Assembly (NCBI RefSeq): GCF_000002865.3
Contig: NW_001865054.1
Coordinates: 10,395-48,498 of the forward strand
DNA from: Monosiga brevicollis MX1
Lineage: Eukaryota > Opisthokonta > Choanoflagellata > Craspedida > Salpingoecidae
DNA: 38,104 bases
Direction of reading: 5' to 3'
Position 1 is the first letter of the stretch. Each line of letters opens with the position of its first letter. Below are positions 3,760 through 36,700 of this stretch, one piece after another. The notes beneath the pieces are model-generated. The model saw nothing but the letters and a program-made list of their open reading frames with translations, was not told where the DNA came from and did not search any database. The position numbers and the translations under genes are program-made.

Positions 3760-5403
3760 CTACAGCTCGCGAATCTGCTTCATCAGGTATTCCTTCTCAT
3801 CCACAAACTGCTCGTCCTCGGCACGATCGTTATGGAAATCAGCCAAGAATTCCAGCAAGGCCTCGCGATTCCGTTGCAGGATGCTCAAGATTTCCGGCTC
3901 CTTGTTCGGGTTGGCCACAAACACCTTGAACACGTGGAAGGCCTCAAACTGAATGTTGCGGCTCTTGTCGCCCAGCAGTGTCATCATCAGCTTCAGATTG
4001 TTCTTGTTGCTAATGTACTTGGTCATGGTCGTAAAGTTGGCGCGGTCCAGGAGCAGCTCACCCAAGAGCTTCAGGCTCTGGCGCTTGGTCACGTAGTTTT
4101 CCGACTTGAGCAGTGTATCATAATGCTCCATGAACTTGTCATAGTTGCTCTCCAAGAAGGTCGCCGCCAAAACCTTGTGCTTGGTCATCAAATCCTATCC
4201 CCACCAAAGGTGACCACAGAGAGAATAGTGAATGGCTGGAACAGGGCAAATCCTGTGCCTGAGGCGAGATGCGAGCTGCACCTCGGGTCAAGAATTGCAA
4301 GGATTGCGAGTCCTTGTCCGTGTGAATACTGCCGTACCTTGAACGAGGAGAAGGCGTCTGACGCCAGATCGAACTGGCTCAGCTGCACATGCTCGAAAAA
4401 CTTGTAAAAGAGCTCATCGGAATGCATGATGATCTTGGCCAGGGGCTCAAACTTGATGCACTCGCGCAGCATCATACCCGTGCTGAGGGCAATGGCAGGG
4501 TCTTCATAGCCCTGGCAGAGCTTCGTCAGAATCTCAGGCTTGACAGTGCAGATATAGTCCACCGTCGGGGTGCGGTCCCCAATCTCACGCTTCAGCAAGC
4601 GGTTGAAGATCTGGACCACGTCCTTCTTGCCCTATCATATTCATGCCCACAGGTAGCAAACAAGACCAATGTCAAACTCAAAAATGGAAGCCAACACGTC
4701 CATAGCAAGACCGCCCAAGGCGTGAAGGAGCCCAATGGTGATGAAGAGGAAGACTTGGGACCTACCTCAAAATCCATCTGATTGAGGTTGAGAATAAACT
4801 CAAAGAGAGCATGATTGGCTTCAACTGCTGCGGCCAGCTGGGCGCAGGCCTCGGTTGATGCAGCTCCTCCATCTAGCATGGTCACCAGCCCGAAAAACAT
4901 CATGACCAAATAGAGCACCGCCAGTGCCAATGGCAATCGACATGAATGGATGAGTTATGGAGAAATTTACGCCTACACCAGCGAGAAAACCCCCTTGCAT
5001 ACTCGCGTGGTAACGCACCAGCACCAAACAAAATCAGCTTCATCTGCTGCAGTTGCTTATCAAATTCTTCCTGGCGCTGTTGCAAGGCGAAAAAGAGGAA
5101 AAAGAGAAGATGAGATTGAGTGAGGTGGCGAGGAAATGGGGCATGACCGTCTGAGCTGCACCTAGCCTAGTCCAAGCCAGGGTGGACGCATGATCAAGAG
5201 CAAGCGAACCTTCTTGTTGCCTTCTTGCTTGTCGACGAGCTCAATCGCCTTTTTGACGAGGTCTGCGGCCTTGGGCTACGGCAAGATTCAATACAATAAT
5301 ACGCGATAATGGCCGAGGATAGGGCAAGCCACGAACCCAAGACGCGCTCCTGTCAAACTCTGCTCAACTAAGCATCCCAAAAAAAAAAAGCTCAACATAC
5401 CAT
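3760..5403 (-). CDS. CAB39: Mo25/CAB39 scaffold protein (LKB1-STRAD partner)
   Basis: Mo25 is an armadillo-like helical scaffold that stabilises the LKB1-STRAD kinase complex and activates GCK/STE20 kinases. Exons: 5403-5401 (ATG only), 5275-5210, 5076-5019, 4872-4766, 4631-4338 and 4194-3760. The total is 963 nt, or 320 aa, slightly shorter than the usual 340. Diagnostic segments are MKLILFGA near the N-terminus, [98 protein letters not shown] and [19 protein letters not shown], all near-invariant in the family. The final exon carries the most conserved C-terminal third. The first exon supplies only the start codon: the intron donor GTATGT follows the ATG directly. The context around it is GCCACCATGG. 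The identification is very secure. Only the short N-terminal exons depend on splice inference. Confidence 0.95.
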
Positions 5404-17000: not shown

Positions 17001-20000
17001 TCAAACGGACCAAGCCCGCGTACCATGACAATATAAGACCCATCAATGCGACGCTGACCCTTTCAGGCTCAACCGGGAGAAACCTGAGGCAGCCACTCAC
17101 CTCGTCAGTCCATTGGAAGAAGATTTTGCCCATGTGCTGGGTGGCACTGACGTCGATGGGGGGTCCTGTGGTGTCGGATTGATCGCACCCGCAGGTGGTC
17201 TGCACAATATTGAACTCGGCGGCCTCATCCTCATACTCTGACGCATCCTTGTCCTGGGACTCGACCTTAAGATAGTAGTACTGGCCTGAAATAAACGGGA
17301 GAAAACCGTGTTAGCGCGAATCCAGGTGGCACAGAGTTGCACTTGTGGCCTACAAGTCAGCGTTCGGTACCTGACCTGGCACGAGGTTGGCAAACGTGTG
17401 GTCTGAAATGTCAGCGTAGCCACTACCGCTGGTATCAGCGGAAACCTCCAGGGGATAGCCCACAGCGTCATCATACGCATCTGAGGGCCAAGCGTAAGCA
17501 CGGGAGAGCATCGTGAGTGTGCATGCATGGAGATTTTGCTTTGGAGCTACAGATCAGTAACGCAAAAACCAAAGCATTCTTACATTCGCGGTCTCGCCAC
17601 AGGCCCAAAGTAACGCGGAACTTGGCCCATCGTTGAGCTGAGTTATCGATCTTAATGGTTATATTTTTGGCGTAAGCCTCATAGGTCACGGAGAAAGCGG
17701 GTTGATCAATGCATTCGGTAGCACCCGTCGTCGTGACGTAGGTTCCATCTGGACACGTCTGACAAGATGACTGCGCCGTCTATGGCGTTGCAAAATATCC
17801 ATGATGCCATGAGTTGTTGGCCAGCACAAGCTGTTTTGAAGTCCTGCGGAAGCCGAAGGGAAACGCTATCTTACCGAATCTTGATATTTTCCTGGCCAAG
17901 GCGAGGACTGGCAACTTTTGCAAGAATTCGCCGTGTTAACATCTGAATACTTGCCCACTGGACAGGCCTTGCGGGTAGTGCGATCAGAGTCAGATACATA
18001 GTAGCCCGTACTATAGTTCAAAAGTATCAACATAAGTTGATCGCGTTTGATGAGCGATGCAGATGATGGAAGGAAGGATGTTGTCAGCACGCCCTCCTTT
18101 CCCTTACCCGGCCTGCTTGCAAGAACTTTGGCCTGTCTGGTCAGTGTATGTGCCGCTCGAGCACGACGTGCAGGCAGTATTGCCAGTGCCCGACGCATAT
18201 TTGCCTACGCAGAAATGCATTGGTTTAATTAGCAAAAGAATGTTTGCAACATGCTTGGATAGCGATGTGCGCAGGGATGAGAGGCGCCCACCTTGAGCAC
18301 ACGAGGAACAACTCGTCTGTCCACTGCTAGATTGGGCTTTGCCGGCCGTGCAGGCAACACACACGCCATCCACTGTGTCACCAGACTGATAGTATCCAGC
18401 GTTGCACGAGGTACCTCCGTCGCAACCACAGTTTTGATCACACCCCGAGTCACAACTGCTATCGCAGTTTACCGAGCCGCCGCAATTACTACATTGTGGT
18501 TCACAAGTCAAGCCAGCATTGCAGTAAGCAAAGTCAAATCATGACGAATCATACCAGTTTGATACTATTATTTAGCTACCAACCTGTCACATCCGTTATC
18601 ACAGCTGTCACGTTGTCGTCGATTCAGTGTCAGATGGCGGGGGGTTCGTATGTGCGGAGAGGCAACAGACATGAGGCGTAAAGATTAAGTCTCAACCCTT
18701 CGAGTCAAGCGCCGAACGCTGCAAACCACGTCGGAAACGCAACGTACCTGCCATCACAATCGCAGCCAGAGGAGGAACATGTGCCGGCGGACGAGCAAGG
18801 CGCAACCCAACTCGTGCCACGACGACTGCGTTCCATGCCCATCGCCGTGTCGCGGACACTGGAGACACGCTCAACGAGCTCATTGCCCGCACACTGCAAC
18901 AGAGCGCCAAGATTTTGGCGAAGTTTTTGACGGGGCCAGTAGAGACCAGAGCGATCACCCAGACTGCGTTGCAGCTGCTCAAAGCGAATACCACTGAGTG
19001 CCGAAAGAAGCGAGTACGACGCTTCACCCATAATCAGCGGGCTCAGGCTGGCGCAGAGCTGTTCGCGCCAAGTAGCCAGGCCCGGCACAGCCAGCTCGTG
19101 CCAAATGAGGCCCTCAGGCGTCTGACCAACGGCATTGGCGAGTGCCTCATACTGATGGCAGACGTAACTGGGGAGGGTAGTGCGCTGGCACTGGGCAGTG
19201 AGAACGTCGAGCCAGGTGCGGCCCGTGCGGGAGAGACCGATGGTGAGATGGGCAGAGGGGGTATCGGTGGTGACGGCGTAGTGGATGACGCCCTTGGGGA
19301 GGTACATGCTGTCGCCTTGGTGGAGGGTGACGTTGCGGCAGATCATGGGCTGGAGCATGGACATGGTGTAGGTGGTGCAGCCGTCGAGGTGGCTGCGTTT
19401 GATCTCCTGGAGCTGGGCACGGTCGGCTTCTGAGAGGGAGACGGTGGCGTTGTCTGTCTGGGGGAGGCAGAGGGTCCAGTGTTTTTGGTTTGCCACCTGG
19501 ACCACGACGACGTCGTATGGATCCGTGTGGGGCTATCGAGAAGGACAGAGGGACAGAGGGACAGAGGGACAGTGAAGTAGGAGGTCGTGTGAGCAGAGAG
19601 GTGGATGAGCATGCGTTTCCGTGTGTCAAAGCGGTGAGAGGCAAGGCACGGCAAGGCAAGGTGGGGAAGCATGGGCGGTACCTCGAGGGTCTGGGCGTTG
19701 GCAGGAGTAAAGTAGGCGTGAACGGTGGCATCGATGCCGAGTTCGGATTCGATGAGGGACTCGAGGGCCGATGGCTGGGCCTTGCGGTCAAACTCACGCT
19801 TGTAGACGACGCTGGTCACATCGCTCATGTTCTGAAGCTCGGCCCAGCTTGGCGTCGTTGAATACTTTTGGTTCAAACGCATCGCCTTGATGGCATTGGG
19901 GAAGCCGGCGGCCTGGCGATAGATGGAACCAAAGGCTTCGAGGCTCGCCATGTGTTGAGCGAGGGGTTCGGTCTCGCGCAGCTGGGTGAGAAAGGCATCG

Positions 20001-20218
20001 GCATCGGACCCGGAGCGGGAGACGACGCGTGTCTGTGTCTGGAAGGTTCGTTCGATCTGGCGGGAGTTCATGGGTTGGAGGACTGTCACAAGACCATCGT
20101 TTCCTTGGGCTGTGGGGCTGAGGCAGAGCAGGTAGAAAAGTAGGGCGAGGGCAGGCAAGCGAGTGTACAGCCGCTTCTGCACCGGCCTCGCCTCACCCAC
20201 GGTTGGCGTGGGCGTCAT
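11019..20218 (-). CDS. Copy A: receptor-like transmembrane protein with N-terminal JmjC oxygenase ectodomain (2369 aa)
   Basis: Twenty exons: 20218-19682, 19532-18748, 18604-18584, 18488-18292, 18204-18108, 18010-17875, 17779-17584, 17480-17376, 17285-17101, 16997-16940, 16826-16615, 16537-15074, 14967-14931, 14827-14683, 14594-14252, 14136-13810, 13650-13402, 13296-13201, 13045-12936 and 12828-11019 (7110 nt). Order: hydrophobic leader (LPALALLFYLLCLSPTAQG); JmjC domain with PHTDPYDVVVVQV (H181, D183) and YLPKGVIHYA (H263); CDxxCD cysteine clusters and GCC2/ephrin-receptor-like repeats; FN3-like pieces; a 488-codon exon of beta-sandwich/carboxypeptidase-regulatory-like sequence; a helical segment (about AIDGWTDIVDYIDNITAQ); a second beta-rich half with a Big-like EPVDGVFSAGDVISVKMTED motif; a transmembrane helix (VFGLVVAVLAVQVLGFVGLY); and a tail of about 90 aa with TYNLA, DYDFA and RRLS. 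An in-frame upstream Met (about 20317) is an alternative start. Function is unknown. Oxygenase activity is inferred only from the triad. Confidence 0.88.
18905..19831 (-). repeat. Near-identical block shared with copy B (29583-30512)
   Basis: Most of JmjC exon 2, all of intron 1 and the 3' part of exon 1 are almost base-for-base the same in copies A and B. Both sides of the block are clearly diverged. The intron differs mainly in the number of short CAGAGGG units. A second short near-identical patch lies at about 19945-20045, matching 30640-30740. Confidence 0.9.
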
Positions 20219-21549
20219 CTCGGCGGCGGCAATGCTCGACAGTAGCAGTGGTAGTGCTTCAATTCCAAAGGTCAGCGGGTGGATCGACCAGAGTGAAAGA
20301 AAAAAAAAATGAAGCATTCACACACCCCAGCTCGAGAGACTGCATGGATTCAATCTCAACAGGAGGGGGGCGAGAGGAGCCGAGAGGAGCAAAGGCTGTT
20401 GTTGTTTACACCCAGTTTTTTTTTTTTTCCGTCCTGAAATTGGGACCAAAGGAGTTGGGAAAAGGGGTGTGTTTGAGCATCAGGGGTACTTGGACTGATT
20501 GGGACCGTTCGTCCAAATGCTCCGCTCCATCCGCTCCGTCCGCTGTTGGAGTTTCACGAGTTCGGAAGAGGGAGAGGAAAGAGGGAGAGGGAAGTGGGAG
20601 AGGGAAGTGGGAAAGGGAAGGAGGGAAGGAGGGGACTGTTGTGTGGTTTGTCTGAACCCGCTGTTGCTTTGTTTTCGTCTCACTGCGACTTTGCCTGAGC
20701 GGCAGGGGCTGACGCACCACCATACTTCGGACGTGGTTGGGTTGACTTTTTGTAGGTTGGGACACTATCATCACGTCTGTCGTGACAAAAACCAGCACGT
20801 GAAGAATGAATGACATGCACTTGTACAACGAAATTTCAAATTTTTTTCTACTTCACTTGTTTTTGAGAACTACAACAACAAAGAACAAAACAAAACCTGA
20901 CAGGGTGTAAGGTGCGTGATGGTGTGGAAAGGACTGCTACTTCAAGGCTAAGTTGGCGAGACAACAATGGGTTGTGGTGGTCAGGTTTGACACCTAATTC
21001 ATTGTGAGGTCAACACAACAGTCTTACACGTTTCGATGCGTCGGGCGGTGCGTATGTGCCGTTCGCTTGCCTCTTGCTTCTCTCACCTACTTTTCGATGC
21101 CACCCAACCTATCTGGCCTGATGCTTGCTACAAACACCTTGTTTATCACGCGCACCGATCTGTGCTCAAGCTCGTCTCCCAACTTTTTTCATGTATCGAT
21201 ACATATGCAGCTCTAGAGGAGGGTGATAGCACATTCATTTGCCATTTGCAAATTTGTGTTACCAAAGCACACCCTTTTATTGCTACAACAAGGGAAGGAT
21301 TTGTGATGACGAAAAAGGGGCTCTTTGCTTTGAATTGCGCCGACTGAAAAAGCGATGCTTAAAAACATGTCAATTCTTTCATTGACAAGAGCAGAACCGG
21401 CAGGGTGGGTGGTAGCTGGCGGCCTTTAATAATTTTCAACATCCCACTAACTCACAAACGTTAAACACTCATGCACAGGCTCAAAATATCAAGGAGCTAG
21501 TGAGGTTAGCATGGGCAGAAAGCATGCAAGAACCGACGATCATCAGCAT
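20219..21549. other. Intergenic region between the tandem copies
   Basis: This region holds the copy A promoter and 5' UTR and the copy B 3' UTR. It contains a GA/purine-rich stretch (about 20560-20640, GGGAGAGGGAAGTGGGA-type units) and T/A-runs at about 20416 and 20840. I see no supported gene and no trace of a third copy. Confidence 0.55.
20560..20640. repeat. Imperfect purine (GGGAGAGGGAAG) repeat
   Basis: Strongly strand-asymmetric G/A tract built of irregular GGGAGA and GGGAAG units, lying about 350 bp upstream of the copy A start. Confidence 0.75.
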
Positions 21550-23495
21550 CTACGCCGAGACGACGCTCACTCGTCGCCCGGTTGCAGGCAGAGCATGCTC
21601 CTCTTCAACGTCAGATTGAGCAAAGTCTGTCATGGCATCCAAGTCCGTGCTGGTCACGCGACGCTGTCCGTGCGCAGAGTTGCGATAGGCCAGTTCATAA
21701 GTTGGGTTTGCCACATCCTGGCGGTTGGCCAGCTCATATGTCGTGTTCACATGGGCGGGAGATTGAGCAAAGCTGTAGTTGCTGTCCTGCTTGCCAGTGC
21801 GGGTCGACTTGGCGCTCCCTGCCGAGAACACTTGGAATTGGCGTTGGTGCTTGGAGGAACCCTCCAGATGCGCGCGCTGGCCGCGATACTTGTAGCACCA
21901 CACCAGGGCCACAATCACCACAAACTGCAACACCATCGTCACAATAGAAACGACAAACGTGGCAGTGACGTCGTCCTTGAGGGCCGAGATGTCCGCCGAA
22001 GAGGCCGACGCACTGTTGTCCGAGTCTCCCGTGGGTGTCGCCGTCGTGCTACTCTCCCCATCCGAATCGTCATCAATGATGCTGCTGGTTTCCAGGTAAG
22101 TATTGCCATCAACGGACACAACGGAAAAATTGCCACCGTTCTGCAGTGCTTGCTCAAGGAGGTACACCAAGACCTCGCTTGACTGCTCCGAGTTGTCGCG
22201 ACGACGCGCAGAAGCTGCTGCCGTGAAGAGCAAGCTGACGGCCGTTCGGTTGTCAGCCTCCTCGGAGAAGCGCTGAACAGAGATGCGGGAGGTCGCCACG
22301 CCGAGGATACTGGCCAGTTCCGAGGCGATGCGTGCGGCCAGCGCCTGTGCCTCCTCGCTGTTGATGTCCGCGTAGGCCTCGTCCCACGTCACCGTCAGGA
22401 CCAGGTCGTTGATGGCTACCGACACACTGGACGTGGTCGTCGGGGCCTCGTACTCGTACGTCCAGCTAATCTCACTGGCTGCGTTCTGCGCCAGATCCAG
22501 CACGCCCGTGATGACAACCGTCACACTCGAGCCAGCCAAGGTGGCCGAGGAGAAGTGGCGATAGAGCGACAGTGACAGCGTGTCGCCGCTGCACTCAATG
22601 TCAATGTCGTTGGTACCTAGCTCGAAAAGCCCCTCAACAGTCACGGCCACATAAAAAGGGAAGGGGCGGCTGCACACAATATCCTCAGTCATCTTCACTG
22701 AGATCACATCGCCAGCAGAGAAGACACCGTCCACGGGCTCGGGCTGAGAAAAGACGCCTGGCGCCTCCCGATCAATGCGGCCACTGATCGTACTAGAAAA
22801 CACCTCATTGATGCCATCCGGCGGATCCAGGCCCGCCGCAGTGCACTCGCTCACTGCCATCAGCTCGTACTCCCCGTCCAGAACACCATCGGTATTCCAT
22901 TCAAGGGTGCTATAACCGTAGTCCGACTCGCCGTACATAAAGTTGAGAATGTCCCCGCTGGCGTTGCGGGCGTACGCCCAGTCCACGTCACCCACACGAC
23001 GGTACATGAGATGCACGCCCTCCAGGCGGCCATTGTCTTCCCAGCGGCGAGAGGATGTCTCAGGGTTGGCCAGGGTAACGCGGAAGATCTCGGCATTCTC
23101 CTCAATGTTGACAAGGAACGAGCGCTCGCGACTCATGGTGCCAGTCCAGTCAACCTGGGAGCAGGGCTGGAGAAACTCAACGGAGAGCGTCACTTCCGAG
23201 GACTGCAGCTCAGCCAAGGCAGCATCGTCGCCACCCACAAACTCAATGCTCTCGCAGCGCGACCGGTAGCCCAGAATCACGTTGAAGGTGTAGCGGCTCA
23301 TGTCATAGCGTTTCACGGCAATCACTTGCTCGTACTGCGACTCACCGGGCATTTGCTCAAACACAATGGGCTGAACGAGACGATGGCCATCTGCCGTGAC
23401 GGACACACCCGTCTCGTCACGAATATACCTACATTACCGAACACAGGAGACGAGGTGACGGGCACGCTTTGTCGGAAACTGTTGCGGACGCGGTC

Positions 23496-23569
<74 letters not shown>

Positions 23570-26500
23570 GCAACAACAACAACAACAATCATCATTCTTC
23601 AGCACTCAAAGGCGTAAACAGAACACTCACAGCTCATAAGAGGCAGAGCCAATGGCATCGTTGAGCAACAGGACGGTGAAATAGGCTTCGGCATCCGGGA
23701 AAACCTCCCCAGCCGGCGTGCGCGTCACAAGCAATCGTGGCTAAAGGGGAAATGAAAAGACAAACAACGTGAAACTGCCGCTTCACTGCAATAGCCCCAT
23801 CGGTGTCGTGCCCCAGAGGCACACGAGCTGTACACTCTAGGGGAGGGCACGAAATGCAACGCACCTGCTGCAAGGCATATGTATTGTCCTCGTGAAGGCA
23901 CGAGCTGGAACCAGCAATCGTGGCAAACACCATGGTGTTGAAATAGGGGTCACGATAGACCTAAAAGGTGACCCCATGCAAAGCACAACAAGAATGCCAT
24001 TGCCACCCACATCTTGGTGAGCCGTGACACGCCGCGTTGCAAGTGGTGTTGCGCACTTTGCACAGTGGTGTGCAAGGTCTCACCTGCACCAGGAATTCAT
24101 CACCCATGTCTGGATCACTCAGCTCAAAGCCAAAGGTGGCGGTGGTACTCGAGCCATTCGTTGTTGTGTCCTGGTCGTTGATTTCACCCTCGCCACCCAC
24201 GTCTGCACCCACATAGCCGCCAATGACAGTGGCGGAGAAGTCGTGGTCACCAACAATGCGCGCGTTCCAGTCGAGGTGATAAAAGTCGCCGCTGGTAGAC
24301 GTTGCTTCTTGCTCACGAGTGCTCTCGTAACGATACTAAAGCCCAGGCCGACATCAAACCACACAGTCACATTGATGAGAAGGGAAAATACAGCTGTCAC
24401 ACCCGGTAAGGGCGGGAGGCAGGAGGCGGAGGGCAGAGGGCGGAGGGCGCGAGGCGCGTGGATGCTTCTGTACCTTCAGGCCACCACCGCTAAAGCTGAT
24501 GGCATCATTGACCTCGAGATTGGCTTCCGCATCCTCGACCTTGTTCAGGTCAAAGTCCATGGCATTGGCCATGAGCTTGGAGGGCATCAAATGTGTCTGG
24601 CGGGTCAGGTTACCGGCCTCGGCCTGGGCAGTCATGGTGTCAATGTAATCCAAGATCGACTGCCACCCGTCAATGCCCTCGTTGATCTTGCTGATCTTGG
24701 TCAATGTCTCGTTCTGAGAAGCAACATTGTCTGGCTGAGTTTCCAGGAGCTCTTCATACTCTGCCTCGTAGTAGGCCAGGTTCTTTCTCAACGTCGGCAG
24801 CTGTGTACGCAGTCAGAACCAAACACAACACAGTATGAGAACCCTGCATGGGCGATACACAAGGTGGGGCAAAACCAAACAGGAGGCGCATCCTCTCAGC
24901 ACAAGCTCTCAGCACAAGCCGCCACAGAAACACCCACCCACCTCCTCAATCTCAATAAACTTGTACGACTTGATGGAGAAGGCGCCAATCTCGTTGGCCT
25001 TGTCCAGGGTCCACTGGATCTCCGTATCCACGTTTGACTCGCAGGACGTAAAGTTGAAGGAGACCACGCGGACCTCGGCAAACTTGACAACGAGGGAAGG
25101 TACGACAACCAGGTGGTCCGAGGGCGTCCCAGAATAGTCGCTGGTTTCCAACGTGAAGGTTGTCGTCACTTGCAGGGACCCGTCCTTGTTGCCGCTCGTC
25201 TTGATCTTGCCCTCCAAAGAGTTGATGTCCGCAGCAACACCCAAGTGTGAATGGTAGTCAATCGTCTCGACGCATGCCACCAAAGCACACGACTCCATCA
25301 CCGTTCCAAAGCTCAGACCGCCTTCAATATGGCTGTAAGCTCCGGCAAAGGATGCATATTCCTTATGGGTCAAGGATAGTGAAGACTCGGCTGCCTCATA
25401 CCATGCGTAGCTCGCGCCACCCGGAGGATCTAGCAAGGCACCAATTCATCACGGATCAGGATGGCAGTTCCAAGCGCAGTGGCGAAGCAACATTAAGTCG
25501 GATAGACCACGTACCGTAGACGATGGATAGGGGAAAGTATTGGGGAAAGTCCTAAGCCGTGTTGCAAGACAAAGCAAGGCAAGGCAAGACAAGACAAGAC
25601 AAGGCAAGACAAAGCAAGGTAAGACAAAACCAAAAAAAAAAGGAGGGGCGGGGGGGATCGAGGCAGAGGAACAGCCGGCGTCAGACAGGAACAGCTGCAG
25701 CGCATTGAAGAAACCGGGATCATCCATGTGCTAGCAAACCCACAATCCACAACCTACCATCGTAAACTTGTCGCTGAGAACCTTGGCACCAGTCACAACG
25801 ACAGGTACGGCAAGCGTCGAGTCGATATTGACCGCATGCGAGAAGCGAACGGAAAAGAGTTTGGCATACTTGACACCCTCCACCTCGGCAGTGGTTTCCG
25901 GCTCGCCCATTTGAATCTCCATCTCCCCACGAGTAAACTCATACGTATCGGCATTCTCGCCATCGTCGCGCTGCAGCTCCACTTCGCATTCCGTGTTGCA
26001 AAGAACCAAGCGATCATACTCCTCTTGCTCAATGGCTTGTTCAGACAAGAGCTCGTCAGCCACAACCGTGGTCTCACCCAGCTGGTTGGTGACGTACAGA
26101 TTGCCCTCGACCCAGGTGCAGTCGGCCTGGTTGTCCCAGAACTCCTCGTACACCGTTACTGTTACATCGCTGACGACGTCGCGCCCAATGACCTTGGTGT
26201 CACAGGAAGAGGTCTTGGTGCCCGAGATGGTGAGCTCGATGGTGGCCTGCGGGTGATACTCCCAGCGGGCGGTTGCTTCTTCGCTCGAGAGGTCCACGTC
26301 CTGCACACGCACGCCAGCCGCCTTGTAGTACTTGAACATCATGTCCGTGACGTAGGTATTGTCAAAGGCCACGGTGGAATCGTACGAGGCAATCCAGTTG
26401 ATGGCCGGAACCTCCTGGACGCTCTCATATAGAACCTCATAGGTCAGTTCGATGTCGCAGGTCGCGTGCGTGAAGACAATGGTGCTCGTGCCCAGTGTGC

Positions 26501-29500
26501 GGTTGCACTTGCCACCCGCCACCTGCAACGTGACGTTGCGCTTGGTCACATCTTGAAAGTTGATGTCGTTGCCGTTGACAACGTCAAAGTCCACGTAAAA
26601 ATACGAGTAGTTGAGCGTGTTGCCCATGCTGTCAACGACGACTTCGCTGCCCTCTGGAGTCAGGCTGCGAGAGTTGTTCATCAGCTCATACTCATGGTCC
26701 TCATACTCGACTGTGCCATAAACAGTCAACCCTTCGGGCACTGCCACAACGTAGTAGCCCGTAACGTCAGTGTAGGAGCAAGCAATGGTGCCGTGGGTGT
26801 GGCGGCTGTTGAAGCACACGCGGTGGTCTTGCAGACCACAGCCGTCTGGGCTGGCCGTGGTGATTGTGCCGTCAGCGTAGACGTAGCCCGTCAGCGGGAC
26901 GCTCGAGGTGTCCTCAAACTCAATCTTGTTCTCAAAGGTCAACCACTCCACAAGGAAGGTGCGCGAGGTGCAAGAGATGCCGTCGCATTCGTACGTGTGC
27001 TCGATGCCCTCAGAGGTCTTGGCCACGGACACAATCATTTCTTCAAACTGGTTGGTGAGGAGATCTGTCAGAATGTAAACCTCAAACTCGCCGTTGGCGT
27101 CTGTTGTTGTCGTGCCTGACAACGTCCCCCCTCCAATGCTCCATGACACGTTGGTGTCGGCCACGGGAACCTTTGAAAACTCGTCGTTGCCCAACGCAAC
27201 CTGACCTGTCACCTTGGCCTCCTGAGAAAGCCGGGAGAGCAGAAAAGAAAAAAAGAAAGAGAAAGAAAAAAAAAAAAACGGAATACGAACAGAGACACCA
27301 CCAAGTCAGTGTTGAAACGGCCCTGCTTCATGAAGACAAGCCAGTCGGCGCGAGCGCAGCAAACACTCACCCATTGCACCTGATAGTCGGCACAGGCCTC
27401 GCTCGACTCATAGCGGCTATCCAGATCTTGGTCGTCGGCCCAGATCACCGTGGTACTCGAGTACGCGGAAACACAGTATGAATACGCTTGGCCAACATCA
27501 ACCTCGGGTGAGATGATAATGTCGTCAAATACCGTTTCCGGTTCGTGTAGCAAACCACATGCCGTGCTGGAGGCCACGTCGTCTAAGGCACCCGACAGCC
27601 AATGGCATAGCAATGTGTTGGGTTAGATGCCTATCATGGTAGTGGCCACCCGACAAGGAAAGGAACAAGGCGGGAGCTACTCACAGGAGGAAGTGAATGT
27701 GGTACCATCGCGGCGCAGAATGAACCCATCTTCACAGTAGCTCTAACAAACAAGTTAAAAGCAACAACAACAACAACCCATGCAAAGGTTAGTATATACT
27801 ACCAACCCAGGTACGGCAATCAACTCCAAGTCGCAAGCTTTCCGAGATGTCAACCAGACCTGATCCTCCCAAGAGAAGAAGAGCTTGCCCATGTACTGCT
27901 CAACGGCCATGTTGACTGGCGGTCCACTCGTGTCTGTCTCTTGGCAGCCGCAATTGGTTTGGACAATGTTGAACTCGGCGTATTCATCTTCATACTCATT
28001 GTTGTCCTTGTCCATGGCCTCAATCTTCAGATAGTAGTATTGGCCTGCGCAGAACATTTGCAAAACAAGGGTAAGGAAGGAAAGGTTGGGAACAAAGATT
28101 TGACGAAGCGAGCGCGATCACATCGGAGTAAGTTGCCGCGACGCAACGCCCAAGCGCACCTGGAATCAGGTACGAGAGCGTATGGGATGAGACAGAGTCA
28201 TAGGAGCCGCTTGTCTTGGAGGCATCCACTTCAATGGGATAGCCCGAGGCATCGTCATAAGCATCTAAGCATCCCCACGACATTTGCGCAGTATCGGTAT
28301 GTCAGCAAAGAGGTCATCGGAGCAAGCAGTGCCTGGCACGCATTCCCATCAGTAAACCCACATTCACGTGAGCGCCAAAGGCCCAGGCTGATGCGGAACT
28401 GGCCCCAGCGGCCAGCAGAGTTGCCCACGTTGATGGTAATACTCTTGGCCGCGGCCGAGTACGAGGCAGTCAAATCAGGCTGGTCGATGCAACTCGTGGC
28501 TGAGTTTGATGTGACGTATTTGCCGTCAGGGCAAGCCTTGCAGCTGCTCTGTTTTGCCTGATTCTGGTACTCGCCAGGCCACGGCGAGGACTGGCAACTC
28601 TTGCATGAGTTAGCCGTGGAAGTATCAGAATACTTTCCGGCCGCGCACTGCAGGCGGCGCGTGTGGTCTGAATCCTTGACATAGTATCCGGTGCTACGTC
28701 AAGGGATTAGGCCGTGGTGAGTGGTGGCTGATAAATGCTCATGCGCACAGTTGTATAGGAATAATGTTGATGAAAAATTGAACACGACCTACCCGGCGTT
28801 CGTACAGCTACTTGAGCCGTCCTGGGTGTTATACTTGCCGCTTGGACAAGTATAGCAAGCGTTGAACCCCTTTCCAGAGTATTTGCCTAATTCAATGGCA
28901 AGCATGCAATCAGTCGCAGATGACACGGCGGGCATCTCCTCCATGCGAGGTGGATCAATGTCTGCATTCGCAGAAGCATGCGCTCATACCTTGAGGACAG
29001 GAGAAACATGAGGTACCACCGGTACTTGGTTGATACTTTCCAGCAGCACATTCATTGCACTGAGCCTCCGACTGGGCTCCGGAGCGATAGTATCCTCTGT
29101 TGCAGGCAACAGTGCCATCACATTCACAGCTTGAGTCGCAGCTCGAATCACAGCCGCTGTCGCAGCTGAGGCCTAAAGTGCAGCCGCTGTATAAACGCAA
29201 GAGATGGTGGAGATGAGGGACGAAACGACAGTATCTCATGCCGGAGTTGATCAACAAGGGCAAGCGAGCAGGGGCCTTGGTGCAAGAAATACCTGTCACA
29301 ACCGCTATCACAGCTATATGGGGCCGAATAGGAAAGGGGGCATCGCAGGTCAGTCAAATAACAACAAGGCAAGGAAACGTTGGCTATAGCCGACAGCAAG
29401 CCAGCGGCAATGCAGCGACTTACCTTGAGTCACAATCGCAGCCAGAGGCGGAGCACGTATTCGCCGAAGCACATGGTGCCGTCCAACTTGAGCTGCGACG

Positions 29501-30860
29501 ATCACGCTCAAGACCAATCGCGGCATCGTGATGCACATTGACACGCTCGGCCAACTCTTGGGGTTCACACTGTAACAGAGCACCAAGGTTTTGGCGAAGT
29601 TTTTGACGGGGCCAGTAGAGACCAGAGCGATCACCCAGACTGCGTTGCAGCTGCTCAAAGCGAATACCACTGAGTGCCGAAAGAAGCGAGTACGACTCTT
29701 CACCCATAATCAGCGGGCTCAGGCTGGCGCAGAGCTGTTCGCGCCAAGCAGCCAGGCCCGGCACAGCCAGCTCGTGCCAAATGAGGCCCTCAGGCGTCTG
29801 ACCAACAGCATTGGCGAGTGCCTCATACTGATGGCAGACGTAGCTGGGGAGGGTAGTGCGCTGGCACTGGGCAGTGAGAACGTCGAGCCAGGTGCGGCCC
29901 GTGCGGGAGAGACCGATGGTGAGATGGGCAGAGGGGGTATCGGTGGTGACGGCGTAGTGGATGACGCCCTTGGGGAGGTACATGCTGTCGCCTTGGTGGA
30001 GGGTGACGTTGCGGCAGATCATGGGCTGGAGCATGGACATGGTGTAGGTGGTGCAGCCGTCGAGGTGGCTGCGTTTGATCTCTTGGAGCTGGGCGCGGTC
30101 GGCTTCTGAGAGGGAGACGGTGGCGTTGTCTGTCTGGGGGAGACAGAGGGTCCAGTGTTTTTGGTTTGCCACCTGGACCACGACGACGTCGTATGGATCC
30201 GTGTGGGGCTATCGAGAAGTACAGAGGGACAGAGGGTCAGAGGGTCAGAGGGACAGTGAAGTAGGAGGTCGTGTGAGCAGAGAGGTGGATGAGCATGCGT
30301 TTCCGTGTGTCAAAGCGGTGAGAGGCAAGGCACGGCAAGGCAAGGTGGGGAAGCATGGGCGGTACCTCGAGGGTCTGGGCGTTGGCAGGAGTAAAGTAGG
30401 CGTGAACGGTGGCATCGATGCCGAGTTCGGATTCGATGAGGGACTCAAGGGCCGATGGCTGGGCCTTGCGGTCAAACTCACGCTTGTAGACGACGCTGGT
30501 CACATCGCTCATGTTCTTGAACTCGGCCAGCGTCAGCGGGCTGTGCAAGGTGTCGATGCCGCCATGCTGTGTTGTGCGGATGGCATTGGGAAAGCCAGCA
30601 GCTTGAACATAAATGTTTTCAAAGTCCAACAAGCTCGCCATGTGCTGAGCGAGGGGTTCGGTCTCGCGCAGCTGGGTGAGAAAGGCATCGGCATCGGACC
30701 CGGAGCGGGAGACGACGCGAGTCTGTGTCTGGAAGATACGTTCAAGCTGATTTGGGGTGATGGGCTGCAAAAGGGTAGCCAAGCCCTCGAGACCATGGGC
30801 GGGTCTCAGGCAGAGGCAGAGCAGCAGGAGAACCGCCGAGGCGGCGCACCCGCGAGCCAT
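21550..30860 (-). CDS. Copy B: receptor-like transmembrane protein with N-terminal JmjC oxygenase ectodomain (2378 aa)
   Basis: Eighteen exons: 30860-30366, 30208-29424, 29313-29293, 29186-28990, 28886-28793, 28693-28362, 28264-28160, 28044-27860, 27742-27685, 27582-27371, 27221-25758, 25551-25515, 25429-24942, 24800-24474, 24335-24084, 23960-23865, 23740-23631 and 23428-21550 (7137 nt, exactly in frame). The start MARGCAASAVLLLLCLCL with cleavage near AHG is a clear signal peptide. The JmjC iron triad is intact (H167, D169, H249). Cys-rich repeats (about 415-600) include SGCTLGLSCDSGCDSSCDSS. FN3-like, central and Big-like regions follow as in copy A. The transmembrane helix (about 2244-2263, FVVSIVTMVLQFVVIVALVW) precedes a tail of about 115 aa with NYSFAQ, TYELAN, NPTYELAY and RRVS. 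The protein should sit on the cell surface or in a secretory compartment with the oxygenase outside or in the lumen. No known protein with this architecture comes to mind. Confidence 0.9.
23497..23588. repeat. (CAA)n trinucleotide repeat in a copy B intron
   Basis: About 30 CAA/AAC units with one CAG interruption, inside the 202-bp intron 23630-23429 of copy B. The matching intron of copy A (12935-12829) lacks it. Confidence 0.95.
25565..25630. repeat. AAGACAAGGC-type minisatellite in a copy B intron
   Basis: Irregular tandem AAGACA, AAGGCA and AAGCA units in the intron 25757-25552 of copy B, next to an A-run (25633-25641) and a G-run. Confidence 0.8.
29583..30512 (-). repeat. Near-identical block shared with copy A (18905-19831)
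   Basis: This is the partner of the copy A block. Sequence identity falls sharply at about 29580, where the codons after LLQC differ, and at about 30512, where the codons before NMSDVTSVV differ. Confidence 0.9.
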
Positions 30861-31764: not shown

Positions 31765-33849
31765 ATGAGAATGGCGCTTCATCAACACTGGAGCTGGCTG
31801 CTCATGGTTGGACTGGCCAGCAGCGTGTGCTGGGCCGAACCCGTGAAGGTACGTGAGAGCAGGCGTTGTGGAAAAGTTGGTCCTCTACGAATCGCTTTGG
31901 GCACTATTATGGTCTTCCCATCTTACTCACACAAGACTGTTTCAGGTGATTTTGGACACAGACATGTCGACTGATTGCGATGATGTGGCAGCGACCTGCA
32001 TCCTGAATCAGATGCATGCCGATGGCGAGGTGAGAGCACCAAAAGTGTTGACGTTTGACCTGTTCATGCACATCAACACTCAATCTTGGTACACGCCACT
32101 CATCACGGCATCGGATTAGGTCGAGATTCTGGCCATCGTTCACAACACTGGTCTCTATCAGGGTATTGGCGCCGTATCCGTGCTCAATACGTTCTATAAC
32201 CACTCAAAGATCCCTCTCGGTGCCTACAAAGGCACCTTTGATGCCAACGCCACGGGCCAAGGCGGCGCCAACAAGACAGGCGCGTACGTGGCGGATCTTG
32301 TCGAGCACTTTCCCTCGCCCATCAAAAATTACGACCAGGTTTGTGTCCGGGTTCACTTTTTTACCTTCATCGCTTAACTTTCCGCATCCTGCATGATCGC
32401 ATTTTGTTTCACTGTTGCTTGCAGGTTCCCGCTGCGCTGAGTGTGTACCGACAACAACTCGCAGCAGCGGTATGGCCGACGCCTCTGCATCTTCTAATCA
32501 TCAAGGATGTCTCATTCGTGCTGAGTAAACATGCACAGCATATTTGCCTTTCACCCCGCTTGCTGATTCTCAATTGTTAGGCTAACAACAGCGTGACCAT
32601 TGTATCCATTGGCTTTATGACCAACTTGGCGGATCTCATCAATTCAACAGCCGACGAGCACAGCCCTTTGTCGGGCATCGAGCTCGTCAGCGCAAAGGTG
32701 TGCGCACTGAGGCTCCTCTTGGAGCTTGATCGGAAACCATGTGGGCCTGTTCGCACTTATTTTCTTTACCATAGGTCAAACACTTTGCTGTCATGGGGGG
32801 CAATTACCTACACTATTCCACTCATCCAGAGTGGAACTTTGGCCACAACAACATTGGCGTGAAAACCAAGTTTGTGATTGAGCACTGGCCATCTCACATC
32901 CCAATCACCTATTTGGGGAGTTTCGTGGGTCAAGAGGTATGGACTTGCGGCTAGAGCAGCACTGGTGCCATTGTCACAGATCAGCTGTTTTTCTCACGAC
33001 TACCTTGGCTCATGTTTGCTCCCCTCTATCTCCAACGTTGCTGTTCCTGCCCCTGATTCATTTTGATTTTCAGGTTGTCACTGGTGCTGCCATGACAAAC
33101 CAACTCCCGACTACCAATCCGTGTCGTCAAGCCTACGTTGATTTCAACGTACGTTCTTTGTTAGCAAGCGTGCTATTGCTACATAGCCTTCCCCTCGATG
33201 TACTTGTAAAGATTAGCGAACCCTTGCTGAGTTGACCATTAATATTATGCGTGCGTGTGTGTGTATGTGTGTGTGTGTGTCTGTGTGTGTGTGTGTCTGT
33301 GTGTGTGTCTGTGTGTCTGTGTCTGTGTGTCTGTGTGTCTGTGTGTCTGTGTGTCTGTGTGTCTGTGTGTCTGTGTGTCTGTGTGTCTGTGTGTCTGTGT
33401 GTCTGTGTCTGTGTCTGTGTCTGTGTTTGTGTGACCCTACAGGGCCCCTCGAATGGGCGTTTTAGTTGGGACCCAATGACCACCCTCTTGGCCGTACGCG
33501 GTATTGATCAATTTTACGATAGCGTTCGTGGCTGGAACGAGGTGGTAAGTGTCAACTTTTCAGGGCTTTTTAACATGCTTTCTCCTGACAGCGCTCTTGC
33601 ATTGATCTATAGTTGACCAACGGCACCAATGTATTCCACAATCAAACGGGCACCAACCAAGCATACGTTGTACGTGTATGATTTGGGTGTATGTGTGTTG
33701 CACGCTTGTTGTGTGGTGATGTTCGTCCCACCTGATGCTCATGTTTCACGACTTTGTAATTGCAGGCCATAAAAGGAGACCCACAACAAATCGCCAACGC
33801 CATCGACAACCTGCTTCTCAAAAGTGAAGCGCAGAATGCTCAGGCATAG
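31765..33849 (+). CDS. Secreted inosine-uridine-preferring-type nucleoside hydrolase
   Basis: Hydrolyses the N-glycosidic bond of nucleosides to base and ribose. Ten exons: 31765-31848, 31946-32029, 32120-32338, 32425-32469, 32581-32697, 32775-32936, 33074-33148, 33443-33544, 33613-33669 and 33766-33849. The total is 1029 nt, or 342 aa, and every intron is in phase 0. The first exon encodes a signal peptide ([16 protein letters not shown]). The calcium-binding DxDxxxDD signature is complete at residues 32-41 ([10 protein letters not shown]). [19 protein letters not shown] and [14 protein letters not shown] supply the usual substrate and metal segments, including the late Asp. Secretion suggests scavenging of nucleosides from prey or the medium. 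Exact base preference cannot be read from the sequence. Intron 7 (33149-33442) is enlarged by a TGTGTC microsatellite. The gene ends only 124 bp from the convergent neighbour. Confidence 0.92.
33247..33432. repeat. TGTG/TGTC microsatellite in intron 7 of the nucleoside hydrolase
   Basis: Alternating GT runs broken by regular C substitutions (TGTGTGTC and TGTGTC units), about 185 bp, ending roughly 10 bp before the acceptor at 33441-33442. Because it sits in the pyrimidine-tract position it may influence splicing. Confidence 0.95.
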
Positions 33850-33972
33850 TTGTTGCCATTTTTTATAAATTACCAAGTTTTTGAGTGAATGCTTTAGTTG
33901 TGTGCCATCATGATCGATTAACAAGTTATGCATGGAGTCATCATAGTTGCTCTTGTTTACTTTCATTTAAGC

Positions 33973-35867
33973 CTAAGTCTTGAATGTCTTTTGACGCTTC
34001 ATTTGATTCCGGTGTCTTGAGCAAAAGTCCTCATGCTGAAGCACACGACGTTGATCTTCCAGAGAACGCTCAAGCGCGTCAAGTCGTTCCTCCATCATTC
34101 CCCGAAACCAGACCTGAAGCTGGCGTTGGCGCTTGTCGATTACGCTTGAGAGTGGGGCCACAACCTCTATGGAGGATGCCAGCTCGTCCCACGCCTCTAG
34201 GAGCAATATTGGGGCTTCAAATAAATCGCTCGGAAACCGAACACCTAAGTCTAATTGCGCTACAACAGGGATGGCTCCCGCTTCAATGGCCTCATAAAAG
34301 CAGGTCCAATCAAGCTCATGCTCCTACGTGTCGCAAAGAGTTTTAGAAGCAAAGCGAAGCCTTGTCAGTTCAAAAGCACCAATTCCATCTCAGGCAAAAC
34401 TGCACAATTTAATAGCTACGCGTACCAAAGGGCAGATAGTGAAAGAGGATGCCAGCATGATGCGTGCCGTGGCCGCCGTCGTCAGGCCATCGCTCGCATC
34501 AAGATCGTCCTTATTGAGTGGAACGAGGCTTTGCTCGTAAACCTGCACGACATGATGAGTCCATCTTAGTTGAAGCCTTGCATCGACTTCAACTTTGCTT
34601 CGCGGCACGCCGCTGCAGACAAAGATAGAAACACACCTTTCCAGGAAACAGTTGAGACACGTGTTGCAACGCAGCACGGATAGTCGAGCGCAAGACCGAG
34701 GGACAATTGACGCTTAAACTGACGACGTATTGGCTGATAAAAGGAAAAAAGGGGGGACACGGTTAGAGTGGGAGACCGACAAAAAATACAAATAGAAAGT
34801 GCATAGTTGCACACTGGAATTTAGCATGTTTGCTGTTGTGCGTACCGCGTGCTTGCTGGCAAGACTTGATCAGGAGCGATGGACGGGAAAGTAGCACGCG
34901 TGCCAATGGGAAACAGATCATATTCTTGAGCGCTTTCCGGGTGAGTGGCTTGGTGATGCCACTGCGGTAAAAATATTGGCGCGCGCAAAGTGGGAAAAAG
35001 CGAGGGATTCATTTGTTCACCAAAAATCAAGAGTGCAGTGCGTCCCGGAATTCTCTGTGCCGCTTGTGCAAGGTCTTCAACTGCCACCAGCATGACTTTG
35101 AAGCCAGGATTGTCCATGCAGACTTCTTTAAACCATTTTGTGTCGTCAAGGCTTGCAATGCTGGTGAGCTGCTGCTCGGTGTAAGAGTACGAGCGTCGGG
35201 ATGTGCTTGCGATGGTGCGCATGCTCCAGTCCAACGGCGAGATAGGGGACGCTGAGAAAACGTACAACGTGATGCGGGGTCGTAACGCAGAGTCGATGTG
35301 AAGAACTTCCGACCAGAAGTTTCGTCCACCACATGTGGTCTGTGAAAAGCCTGAGCAAGGCTGCAAGCAGACGTTTTGCCTGTGTTGTCCATCTTCATAC
35401 GCCGAGAAAGCGCGCAAGCAGCCACACTGGTTACCTTTGTTGAGGACGGCAAATTCGAAGCTCTGGTCGGCACAAAAACGCGCGCAGCGAGTTCGCGTCA
35501 ATTCAGGAAGCACAGTCGGCTGTATATCCACCTTGCTGATTGGCAAATAAAAACAACCAAGCGGTGAGGCTTTGATTCTCAAAGAGCGCACGGCAACAGG
35601 CTCCTTTTCTTCTTCTTCACTTTGCTTCGATGAGAATCCTCGACTGAAGCGCGGACGATTGGGCGAAAACTCTTTCGTTTGCGCATCTTCATCTGATCGC
35701 GGCACGTGGAAGGCATGGGCATATGGATGCGGCTGTGGCAGGGTGGGTTTTGCAGGAGAAGGCGCCGTTTGTGTTCGTGATGCTGCAGACCCATGCCAGA
35801 GCAATAGACTGCAGGCCAGGAGCGCCACTACAAAGAGTGCCACCAGAAATGTGGGAAGGCGAGCCAT
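33973..35867 (-). CDS. Type II membrane protein with WSC domain and exostosin-like glycosyltransferase C-terminus
   Basis: Exons 35867-34846, 34733-34635, 34612-34426 and 34323-33973 total 1659 nt, or 552 aa. A short cytoplasmic N-terminus is followed by a signal-anchor helix (LVALFVVALLACSLLLW, about 8-24) and a Pro/Ser-rich stem, the layout of Golgi glycosyltransferases. Residues about 103-190 form a WSC carbohydrate-binding domain: LGCFYLP, CARFC, FEFAVL, CGCL and TTCGGRNF with eight regularly spaced cysteines. The C-terminal part has ITLYVFSASP, RIMLASSFTICPL and CFYEAIEAGAIPVV (about 444-457), which resemble the nucleotide-sugar part of exostosin/RXYLT1-like GT47 enzymes. Substrate is unknown. 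WSC is solid. The transferase call rests on a few motifs. I start at ATG 35867. Exon 2 to 3 joining (GT at 34634) is the least certain splice. Confidence 0.78.
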
Positions 35868-36700
35868 CGCGCCACTTCCAAGACCGATCTTGGCCAGCAA
35901 GCTCACATGGATGGCCGATGGCGCCGTCGTCTGAGAAGAGCGGCCCTCTCAAAGGCGACTATCCGAGCATTTGAACGCAAGAGTAAGAAAGAAGTTATTG
36001 GTGTGTGTGTGTGAAAAGTGAAAAGAGCATCTTCAAAAGAAAGCCAAGAAGCACACCAACAATTTCTTGCGTTGTTGTTGTGACCACTTTGACATGTGCA
36101 TGGACGACAAGAAAAGAAAATCTTGAGGAGATCATGAATCCGACGCGTTAGCCACAAACACGGCCAATTAAAAAACAGAGGCGTGGATAGAGGGCATCAA
36201 ACGCCTCAAGGCAAAGCCGCTGCAGGTATGCAGACGGAGAACCGACCAATCAAAAAGGCTTGTCAAAATACATCCAAAATACATCCAAAATACATCCAAA
36301 ATACACACAACGACTGATACGTACGAGGATTGTGGTTGAATTGGCCCTTGTCTAATGAGCGAATTATTCAACCGCCAATACAGGTACAAGCAAGCTTCGC
36401 ATTCATGCTGCGCGGGTTTTCGATCAGGAGGCAGTCTGGTGTCTCCTTGATATTTGATTGGCAGCATGTCGCACGTCTCCGCAAAGAGCTGTGTGTGTGC
36501 GGTCACGAACCAATAACAGAATTCCTACTTCCAAGTACGAAAAACTAAACCCGATGACCATAACAACAATAACGGTAAAGGATTCTACGAAAACTAACTC
36601 TATGTTGCTTTGAAAACTACAATAATGGCACAAACAGCGTTGATAACCACGATAAGAACATGAAAGCATTTTGCTGACGAGGCCTTGGCACATCAGTGCC
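35868..36700. other. Divergent intergenic region
   Basis: This region lies between the start of the WSC protein gene (minus) and the start of the tail-fibre-like gene (plus). It carries short simple repeats, including a GT run at 36001-36011 and an 11-bp tandem repeat. No supported gene was seen. Confidence 0.5.
36265..36306. repeat. Tandem 11-bp repeat (AAAATACATCC), 3.5 copies
   Basis: Three perfect direct copies plus a partial fourth, head to tail, about 400 bp upstream of the plus-strand start at 36701. Confidence 0.95.

Follow-up and report, generated by a model that had tools for sequence, protein, structure and literature searches.

Studies of JmjC oxygenases have mostly concerned enzymes that work inside the cell, on chromatin, ribosomes and cytosolic targets. 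The animal 2-oxoglutarate (2OG)-dependent hydroxylases that work in the lumen of the secretory pathway, namely the collagen prolyl hydroxylases and AspH, belong to different families and are separate enzymes that are not fused to receptor substrates; as modifiers of secreted or Cys-rich repeats in the endoplasmic reticulum (ER), they nevertheless offer a working analogue for the gene described here. This gene lies in a 38,104-nucleotide stretch of the genome of the choanoflagellate Monosiga brevicollis MX1 (contig NW_001865054.1, positions 10,395 to 48,498; below, the window, whose numbering is used throughout), and is copy B of a tandem pair, A and B, in which a JmjC domain is predicted to form the outermost part of a large receptor-like protein.

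Three described proteins offer the nearest parallels to the JmjC part of copy B. NO66 (RIOX1) and MINA53 (RIOX2, MINA below) hydroxylate histidines in ribosomal proteins (excerpt of PMC9994133). Copy B shares with them the Pfam JmjC_2 domain, the spacing of the iron triad, a lysine 15 residues after the first histidine of the triad and the closest chains in PDB, and it differs from them in a signal-peptide-like start, three extra cysteines that are found family-wide and the fusion to a receptor ectodomain. JMJD8, a human JmjC domain-only protein, was the first of the JmjC proteins to be located in the ER lumen, according to a 2017 report (excerpt of PMC5684140). The parallel is a JmjC domain combined with an N-terminus that directs, or in copy B would direct, the protein into the secretory pathway, but JMJD8, as described, has no receptor part, whereas the copy B model extends far beyond the JmjC domain.

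The JmjC_2 domain and its family

Residues 1-837 of the spliced copy B protein match PF08007 (JmjC_2) with an E value of 2.1e-17 (63.3 bits) over residues 137-267, and the match runs across the junction of exons 1 and 2. Exon 2 alone scores 49.9 bits (E 2.9e-13), and both scores exceed the curated PF08007 cut-off of 22 bits, which places the domain in the JmjC_2 or ROX-type family. Because the match spans the junction, with a rise from 49.9 to 63.3 bits when exon 1 is spliced onto exon 2, it supports the splice as well. The second Pfam match of the JmjC part was Cupin_8 (28.6 bits), and an NCBIfam search returned no match. The nearest PDB chains were MINA and NO66, both in a search with the single sequence (E 8.3e-8 and 1.4e-7) and in one with a nine-row family profile (1.4e-19 and 3.8e-18). 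A first-pass annotation of this DNA had likened the domain to NO66 and MINA, and the Pfam and PDB matches bear this out.

That annotation had also numbered the active-site motifs correctly: HTD at residues 167-169, KHW at 182-184 and H249 within YLPKGVIHYA. The lysine expected to bind 2OG, which it had named as a point to check, is present as K182, aligned with Lys355 of NO66, which we take to be the 2OG lysine of that enzyme. Lys355 makes modelled contacts with inhibitor carboxylates in the excerpt of PMC8667043. H167, D169, H249, K182, Y155 and H260 are invariant in all 16 modelled family members (the rows of A and B being identical), so that the iron triad and the 2OG lysine of a JmjC_2 or ROX-type oxygenase are complete throughout, and this conservation argues that the copy B match is not due to chance. 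On sequence grounds, the copy B module is confirmed as a JmjC_2 domain of the NO66/MINA type with intact active-site residues. Three further cysteines, C187, C217 and C230, are likewise found in 16 of 16. All three are absent from NO66, from a bacterial relative (L046) and from an NO66-like protein of the same genome (C39a), and MINA lacks C187 and C230, the two of the three positions that the comparison covered. The extra cysteines would be compatible with an oxidising compartment.

Two protein searches of the genome returned at least 22 loci of this JmjC subfamily. Sixteen of these were modelled (the window copies A and B, C12, C32, C46, C34a, C35a, C35b, C54a, C47b, C12b, C54b, C51a, C55a, C38a and C56c), and six more (C18, C17, C48, C44, C28 and C34b) were located only and stand outside the 16. 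The 22 do not include C52a, C52b and C56a, which the two protein searches did not return, nor C39a (E 5.8e-4) and C47a (E 2e-4, with internal stops), which were excluded as weak matches; other PF08007 matches in the genome lie outside the modelled set. In a tree rooted at its midpoint only, a branch with 86/86 support sets the 16 secreted members on one side, C39a groups with NO66 and MINA (80/78, an open fork), and L046 and C47a form long branches. The separate position of the family in this tree (86/86) and the signal-like start of copy B (judged by eye and hydropathy) set the window gene apart from NO66/MINA orthologues. A plain intracellular NO66 orthologue was considered for the window gene and rejected, since C39a, a distinct NO66-like gene without a hydrophobic stretch, is present in the genome. 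Another JmjC gene (L033, C47:545480-545938, minus strand) begins, in its model, with a hydrophobic stretch of the kind seen at the N-terminus of type II membrane proteins and lacks a Cys-rich part.

Outside the eukaryotes, L046, from a Polyangia metagenome-assembled genome, resembles the family in its JmjC_2 domain, HTDPYDV motif, triad and lysine; unlike the family, it is a stand-alone protein of 288 amino acids without the three cysteines. It was the only relative returned by a single pattern-based scan of genome contigs, and single scans for viral and for phage relatives found none.

Selection on the module can be read from C32 and C46. The regions C32:630001-650000 (L028-L029) and C46:419001-439000 (L030-L031) are recent duplicates, with 97-99% protein identity over the compared parts and a synonymous divergence (dS) of about 0.11. 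Their ratio of nonsynonymous to synonymous divergence (dN/dS) in the JmjC part is 0.092, which indicates that this part is under purifying selection in the pair. Only C32/C46 was used because dS is saturated or undefined in distant pairs, and the JmjC dN/dS of 0.42 between A and B is distorted by gene conversion. The copy number expansion and the gene conversion would also suit a captured domain that is decaying without function on its host protein; given the low C32/C46 ratio and an active site that is invariant across deep divergence, we regard this as highly improbable.

Domain order and the joining of JmjC to the ectodomain

The first-pass annotation had placed the JmjC part of copy B at 29424-30860, which proved exact, with the minus strand coding. 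All gene models were built with a simple splice-aware Viterbi finder of our own, and their introns are predicted (GT-AG). The copy B model has 16 exons and 2370 amino acids, with about 1,950 residues past the JmjC part, and the copy A model has 17 exons and 2257 amino acids, its exons closely matching those of B. The copy B protein begins MARGCAASAVLLLLCLCLRPAHG, which by eye and by Kyte-Doolittle hydropathy looks like a signal peptide, in keeping with the earlier call of one. Exon 2 opens with PHTDPYDVVVVQVANQKHWTLC, contains GDSMYLPKGVIHYA and terminates in CASANTCSASGCDCD, the beginning of the Cys-rich region. Since the Cys-rich ectodomain starts within the JmjC exon, the two must share one frame. 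The position of intron 1 is common to five gene models (A, B, C12, C32 and C46).

The same order recurs across the genome, and together with the extent of exon 2 this upholds, on predicted gene models, the earlier proposal that JmjC domain and ectodomain form one receptor-like protein. When the large ectodomain exon of copy B (25731-27221 as the query) was searched against the genome, it was found at five places, and a JmjC_2 match lay 1.8-2.7 kb upstream on the same strand at all five. The paralogues C12 and C32 retain this link with just 36-39% identity to B over the long ectodomain exon. The Cys-rich motif CDxxCDxxC follows 16 of the 22 JmjC loci on the same strand, at no more than 1.5 kb, and for three of the six loci without it (C34a, C54a and C56c) the models show a Cys-rich region in variant form. 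Counted from the other side, 16 of the 34 CDxxCDxxC clusters are JmjC-linked, with 0.014 expected by chance. In a related member (L038, C54:144001-154000), GCC2/TNFR-like Cys repeats extend for about 2,000 residues after the JmjC domain and are encoded by two exons, one of about 3.9 kb and one of about 3.1 kb.

Could the JmjC part and the ectodomain be separate neighbouring genes that a gene model has fused? Gene structure here is predicted, the predictor merges genes elsewhere, and an unspliced copy B exon 2 would meet a TAA stop immediately, in the donor. Because the finder can merge genes, the claim of one polypeptide rests on other facts than its joins: the Cys-rich motif starts inside the JmjC exon, the order is identical at five of five ectodomain loci, and the Cys motif follows 16 of the 22 JmjC loci. 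Two separate genes are thus a very improbable account. The finder gave no model at first for C47a and C56a.

Toward its C-terminus copy B has a predicted transmembrane helix and a cytoplasmic tail. A Pfam scan of 21550-23433 (E up to 0.1) detected no kinase domain, so that copy B does not qualify as a receptor tyrosine kinase. NPxY motifs are seen in the tails of B and C47b (L037), as NPTY, and of C12b (L039), as NPVY, and suggest PTB-domain or endocytic adaptors. A weak match to SEA (E 0.018, below the cut-off, in copy B only) lies ahead of the membrane; basic clusters (RRR, RRRR or SRRRS) were seen by eye at the equivalent place in copy A and C12.

Other members do reach a kinase. At five of the 22 JmjC loci at least (C51a, C38a, C54b, C56c and C18), the same strand has a tyrosine kinase match at a distance of 2.0-6.4 kb downstream, five being a lower bound because the kinase searches scored part of their candidates. 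The C51a model comprises JmjC, Cys-rich, Ig-like (an HYR match below the cut-off) and EGF regions, a transmembrane helix and a kinase that matches PK_Tyr with an E value of 1.1e-86 (hand-trimmed piece). C56c is compact, with a signal peptide, JmjC, an RMRR motif, a Cys-rich region, a Ser/Thr-rich stalk, a transmembrane helix and a partial kinase; the C38 model extends to the kinase and omits the transmembrane exon, and the C18 link is one of position alone. C55a, which closely resembles C38a over the part read, had no downstream kinase match in either kinase search, and the C51a-like kinases at C20, C15, C41:162k and C46:1106k had no JmjC match nearby in the genome JmjC searches. These two observations argue that the JmjC module is not tied to the kinase.

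An outermost JmjC module on receptor-like proteins, with a downstream tyrosine kinase match at five loci and NPxY-bearing tails in B, C47b and C12b, would also be expected if the module were a sensor. In this main rival explanation the module, cleaved or not, stays bound to the receptor, as in the Notch S1 heterodimer, and its binding of Fe/2OG, oxygen or a ligand alters signalling, with catalysis secondary or absent. The completeness of the triad, K182, Y155 and H260 in 16 of 16 members suggests selection for catalysis and speaks against such a role, which we consider a real possibility, if an unlikely one.

A furin-type motif and a proposed maturation pathway

Between its JmjC and Cys-rich parts copy B has the sequence RDRR (residues 400-403), which fits the RX[KR]R consensus expected between the modules of a furin-processed proprotein. 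Among 14 linkers from the JmjC domain to the first cysteine (C12b and C54b excluded), RX[KR]R is present in 10 and the looser RXXR in 12, at 7-14 residues ahead of the cysteine, against a background in 40-residue windows elsewhere in the same models of 0-3% and 0-9%, respectively. In a shuffle of the linkers with one member per lineage, RX[KR]R was found in 6 of 8 (P 1.5e-8) and RXXR in 8 of 8 (P 5.9e-5); the eight lineages and their representatives were our choice, and either C32 or C46, in place of C12 as representative of their lineage, makes the second count 7 of 8. The genome encodes a proprotein-convertase P domain (PF01483, E 4.8e-17). The first-pass annotation had missed both this motif and the size of the family, with its five kinase-linked loci.

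The history of the two window copies bears on this motif. A stretch of copy B (29601-30500) is nearly identical to its counterpart in copy A at about 18925-19820, while the flanks are 30-78% identical, except for a block at 30651-30750 (88-100%), and gene conversion between the tandem copies is the likely cause. The tract includes the catalytic core and excludes the protease site (29495-29506), which was thus kept in A and B while the surrounding DNA diverged. With so conserved a furin-type site the JmjC part, once mature, may no longer be joined to the receptor, and it looks like a removable leader, cleavage itself being predicted from the motif.

The reading that we tentatively favour, at slightly less than an even chance, is that the module works in the lumen as an Fe(II)/2OG oxygenase during receptor maturation and is then cut off by a furin-type protease. 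The gene would encode a secretory-pathway JmjC_2 (ROX-type) oxygenase within a type I membrane receptor-like protein. The nascent protein would enter the ER. There the JmjC module, which disulfides probably hold, would hydroxylate residues on the ectodomain of its own or a neighbouring receptor, the adjoining Asp-rich CDxxCD module being the prime candidate substrate. A furin-type protease would cut at RX[KR]R, the enzyme would leave, and the mature receptor would start at the Cys-rich region. At the level of sequence this pathway has in its favour the domain, its active-site residues, the signal-like start, the shared frame, the recurrence of the architecture and the protease motif; from these we infer iron binding, catalysis, the substrate, the compartment and actual cleavage.

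If the module is cut off, it could also act beyond the receptor. Signal-peptide-like starts, the conserved RX[KR]R and the extra conserved cysteines would equally suit an enzyme that works outside the cell after its release, with extracellular proteins or those of prey bacteria as its targets; the stub of the receptor would then be a separate product. Fe(II) and 2OG are, however, generally scarce outside cells, and a free enzyme would have no need of repeated fusion to receptors, and we consider this explanation improbable.

Several observations weigh against maturation by a luminal, removable oxygenase, or against the models on which it draws. The DNA pattern for CDxxCDxxC gave 62 matches and the reversed control pattern gave 7, and 18 of the 34 clusters are not close to any JmjC domain, which counts against the idea of the Cys-rich module as substrate. 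Judged by eye, 11 of the 16 models have a signal-peptide-like start, which for some of them lies at an internal methionine, and 9 of the 16 have a transmembrane helix; the models without one or the other are cut by locus ends or mis-modelled there. The joins of exons 2 to 4 are the least certain of the copy B model, with alternatives available. The C32 model runs into the following gene at its 3' end, and the first models of C51a, C55a and C12b absorbed upstream sequence at their 5' ends. At the protease site C32 and C46 have IKRR, which fits neither motif, C54b has AQRR, and the C12b linker is ambiguous. The support of 86/86 for the secreted clade is moderate.

The window and its place among choanoflagellate receptors

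The features of the tandem copies are collected in Table 1.

Table 1. Features of copies A and B, in window coordinates
Feature	Positions	Strand	Remarks
Copy B, exon 1	30366..30860	-	ATG at 30860; 165 codons, phase 0, GT donor; residues 1-165 (start, signal peptide, N-terminal part of JmjC)
Signal-peptide-like N-terminus	30792..30860	-	Residues 1-23; by eye and Kyte-Doolittle
Intron 1	30209..30365	-	157 bases, GT-AG, directly 5' of PHTDPYD
Exon 2	29424..30208	-	Catalytic JmjC core, C-terminal part of module, furin-type site, first Cys-rich residues; PF08007 E 2.9e-13
H167-T-D169	30197..30205	-	Two iron ligands by homology; H and D in 16/16 modelled members, as in the aligned parts of NO66 and MINA
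K182	30158..30160	-	Aligned with Lys355 of NO66; K in 16/16 and in NO66/MINA
H249	29957..29959	-	Third iron ligand by homology; 16/16
R400-D-R-R403	29495..29506	-	Fits the furin-type proprotein convertase consensus; in the linker from JmjC to the Cys-rich part
Stretch near-identical to copy A	29601..30500	-	Intron 1 included; 84-100% per 50 bases
Exon 3	29017..29186	-	CDSxCDSSC Cys-rich region, which starts at 29473 within exon 2
Exons 4 and 5	28362..28961	-	GCC2/ephrin-receptor-like Cys repeats; PF07699 Ephrin_rec_like E 6.6e-10
Large ectodomain exon	25758..27221	-	Fold unassigned; five genome places, JmjC_2 match upstream of each
RRR	22198..22206	-	Residues 2153-2155; in the weakly SEA-like stretch ahead of the membrane, where a second cleavage is possible
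Transmembrane helix	21886..21972	-	Residues 2231-2259; Kyte-Doolittle maximum 2.87
Cytoplasmic tail with NPTY motif	21550..21885	-	Pfam scan and gene model
Copy A, JmjC exons	18748..20234	-	Model extends to 11019; start codon uncertain

Beyond the tandem pair, the next gene (31775-33850, plus strand) encodes a secreted-looking nucleoside hydrolase (PF01156, E 1.2e-12 with a hand-spliced protein), and a TG-rich microsatellite lies with it near 33250-33430. A WSC-domain protein with an N-terminal hydrophobic stretch is encoded at 34824-35948 on the minus strand (PF01822, E 9.7e-11), and a Mo25-like gene of at least two exons at 3760-4631, also on the minus strand (PF08569, E 6.7e-70 and 7.4e-31).

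M. brevicollis is predicted to have 88 receptor tyrosine kinases (excerpt of PMC3584944). The published cloning primers for one of these, RTKC8 (excerpt of PMC10263333), have gene-specific parts with exact matches in the genome, the reverse primer once (C21:293445) and the forward primer twice (C21:294549 and C21:304881), and tyrosine kinase matches lie between the first pair of sites; on this basis the genome is that of M. brevicollis or of an extremely close relative, as the choanoflagellate guess of the first-pass annotation had implied. Two of its described kinases, RTKB2 and RTKC8, resemble the C51a model in a Cys-rich and HYR ectodomain, with EGF in the case of RTKB2, followed by a transmembrane helix and a tyrosine kinase (excerpts of PMC3584944 and PMC10263333), and the window gene differs from both in having no kinase domain. 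The excerpt on RTKB2 (PMC3584944) has no mention of jumonji and that on RTKC8 (PMC10263333) none of JmjC or cupin; JmjC and cupin were likewise not found in the excerpt of PMC8662651, nor any choanoflagellate term in that of PMC6006756, on NO66/MINA evolution. The JmjC-on-receptor architecture was not found in the open literature searched, with an earlier mention possible in King et al. 2008 or Manning et al. 2008. The domain is of a known kind, and what is new is the receptor architecture and the cleavage site.

A broader proposition, which we hold to be possible and rather doubtful, is that choanoflagellate receptors, tyrosine kinases included, have a built-in modifying enzyme that requires oxygen and 2OG and forms a leader removable by furin. 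If it is true, oxygen and metabolic state would directly control receptor maturation or ligand recognition, which would provide cell-surface signalling with an oxygen-sensing input distinct from the HIF hydroxylases of animals. Such a system would represent a new coupling of oxygen and 2OG to signalling at the cell surface in a close relative of animals, and the adjoining Cys-rich module offers a testable hypothesis for its substrate.

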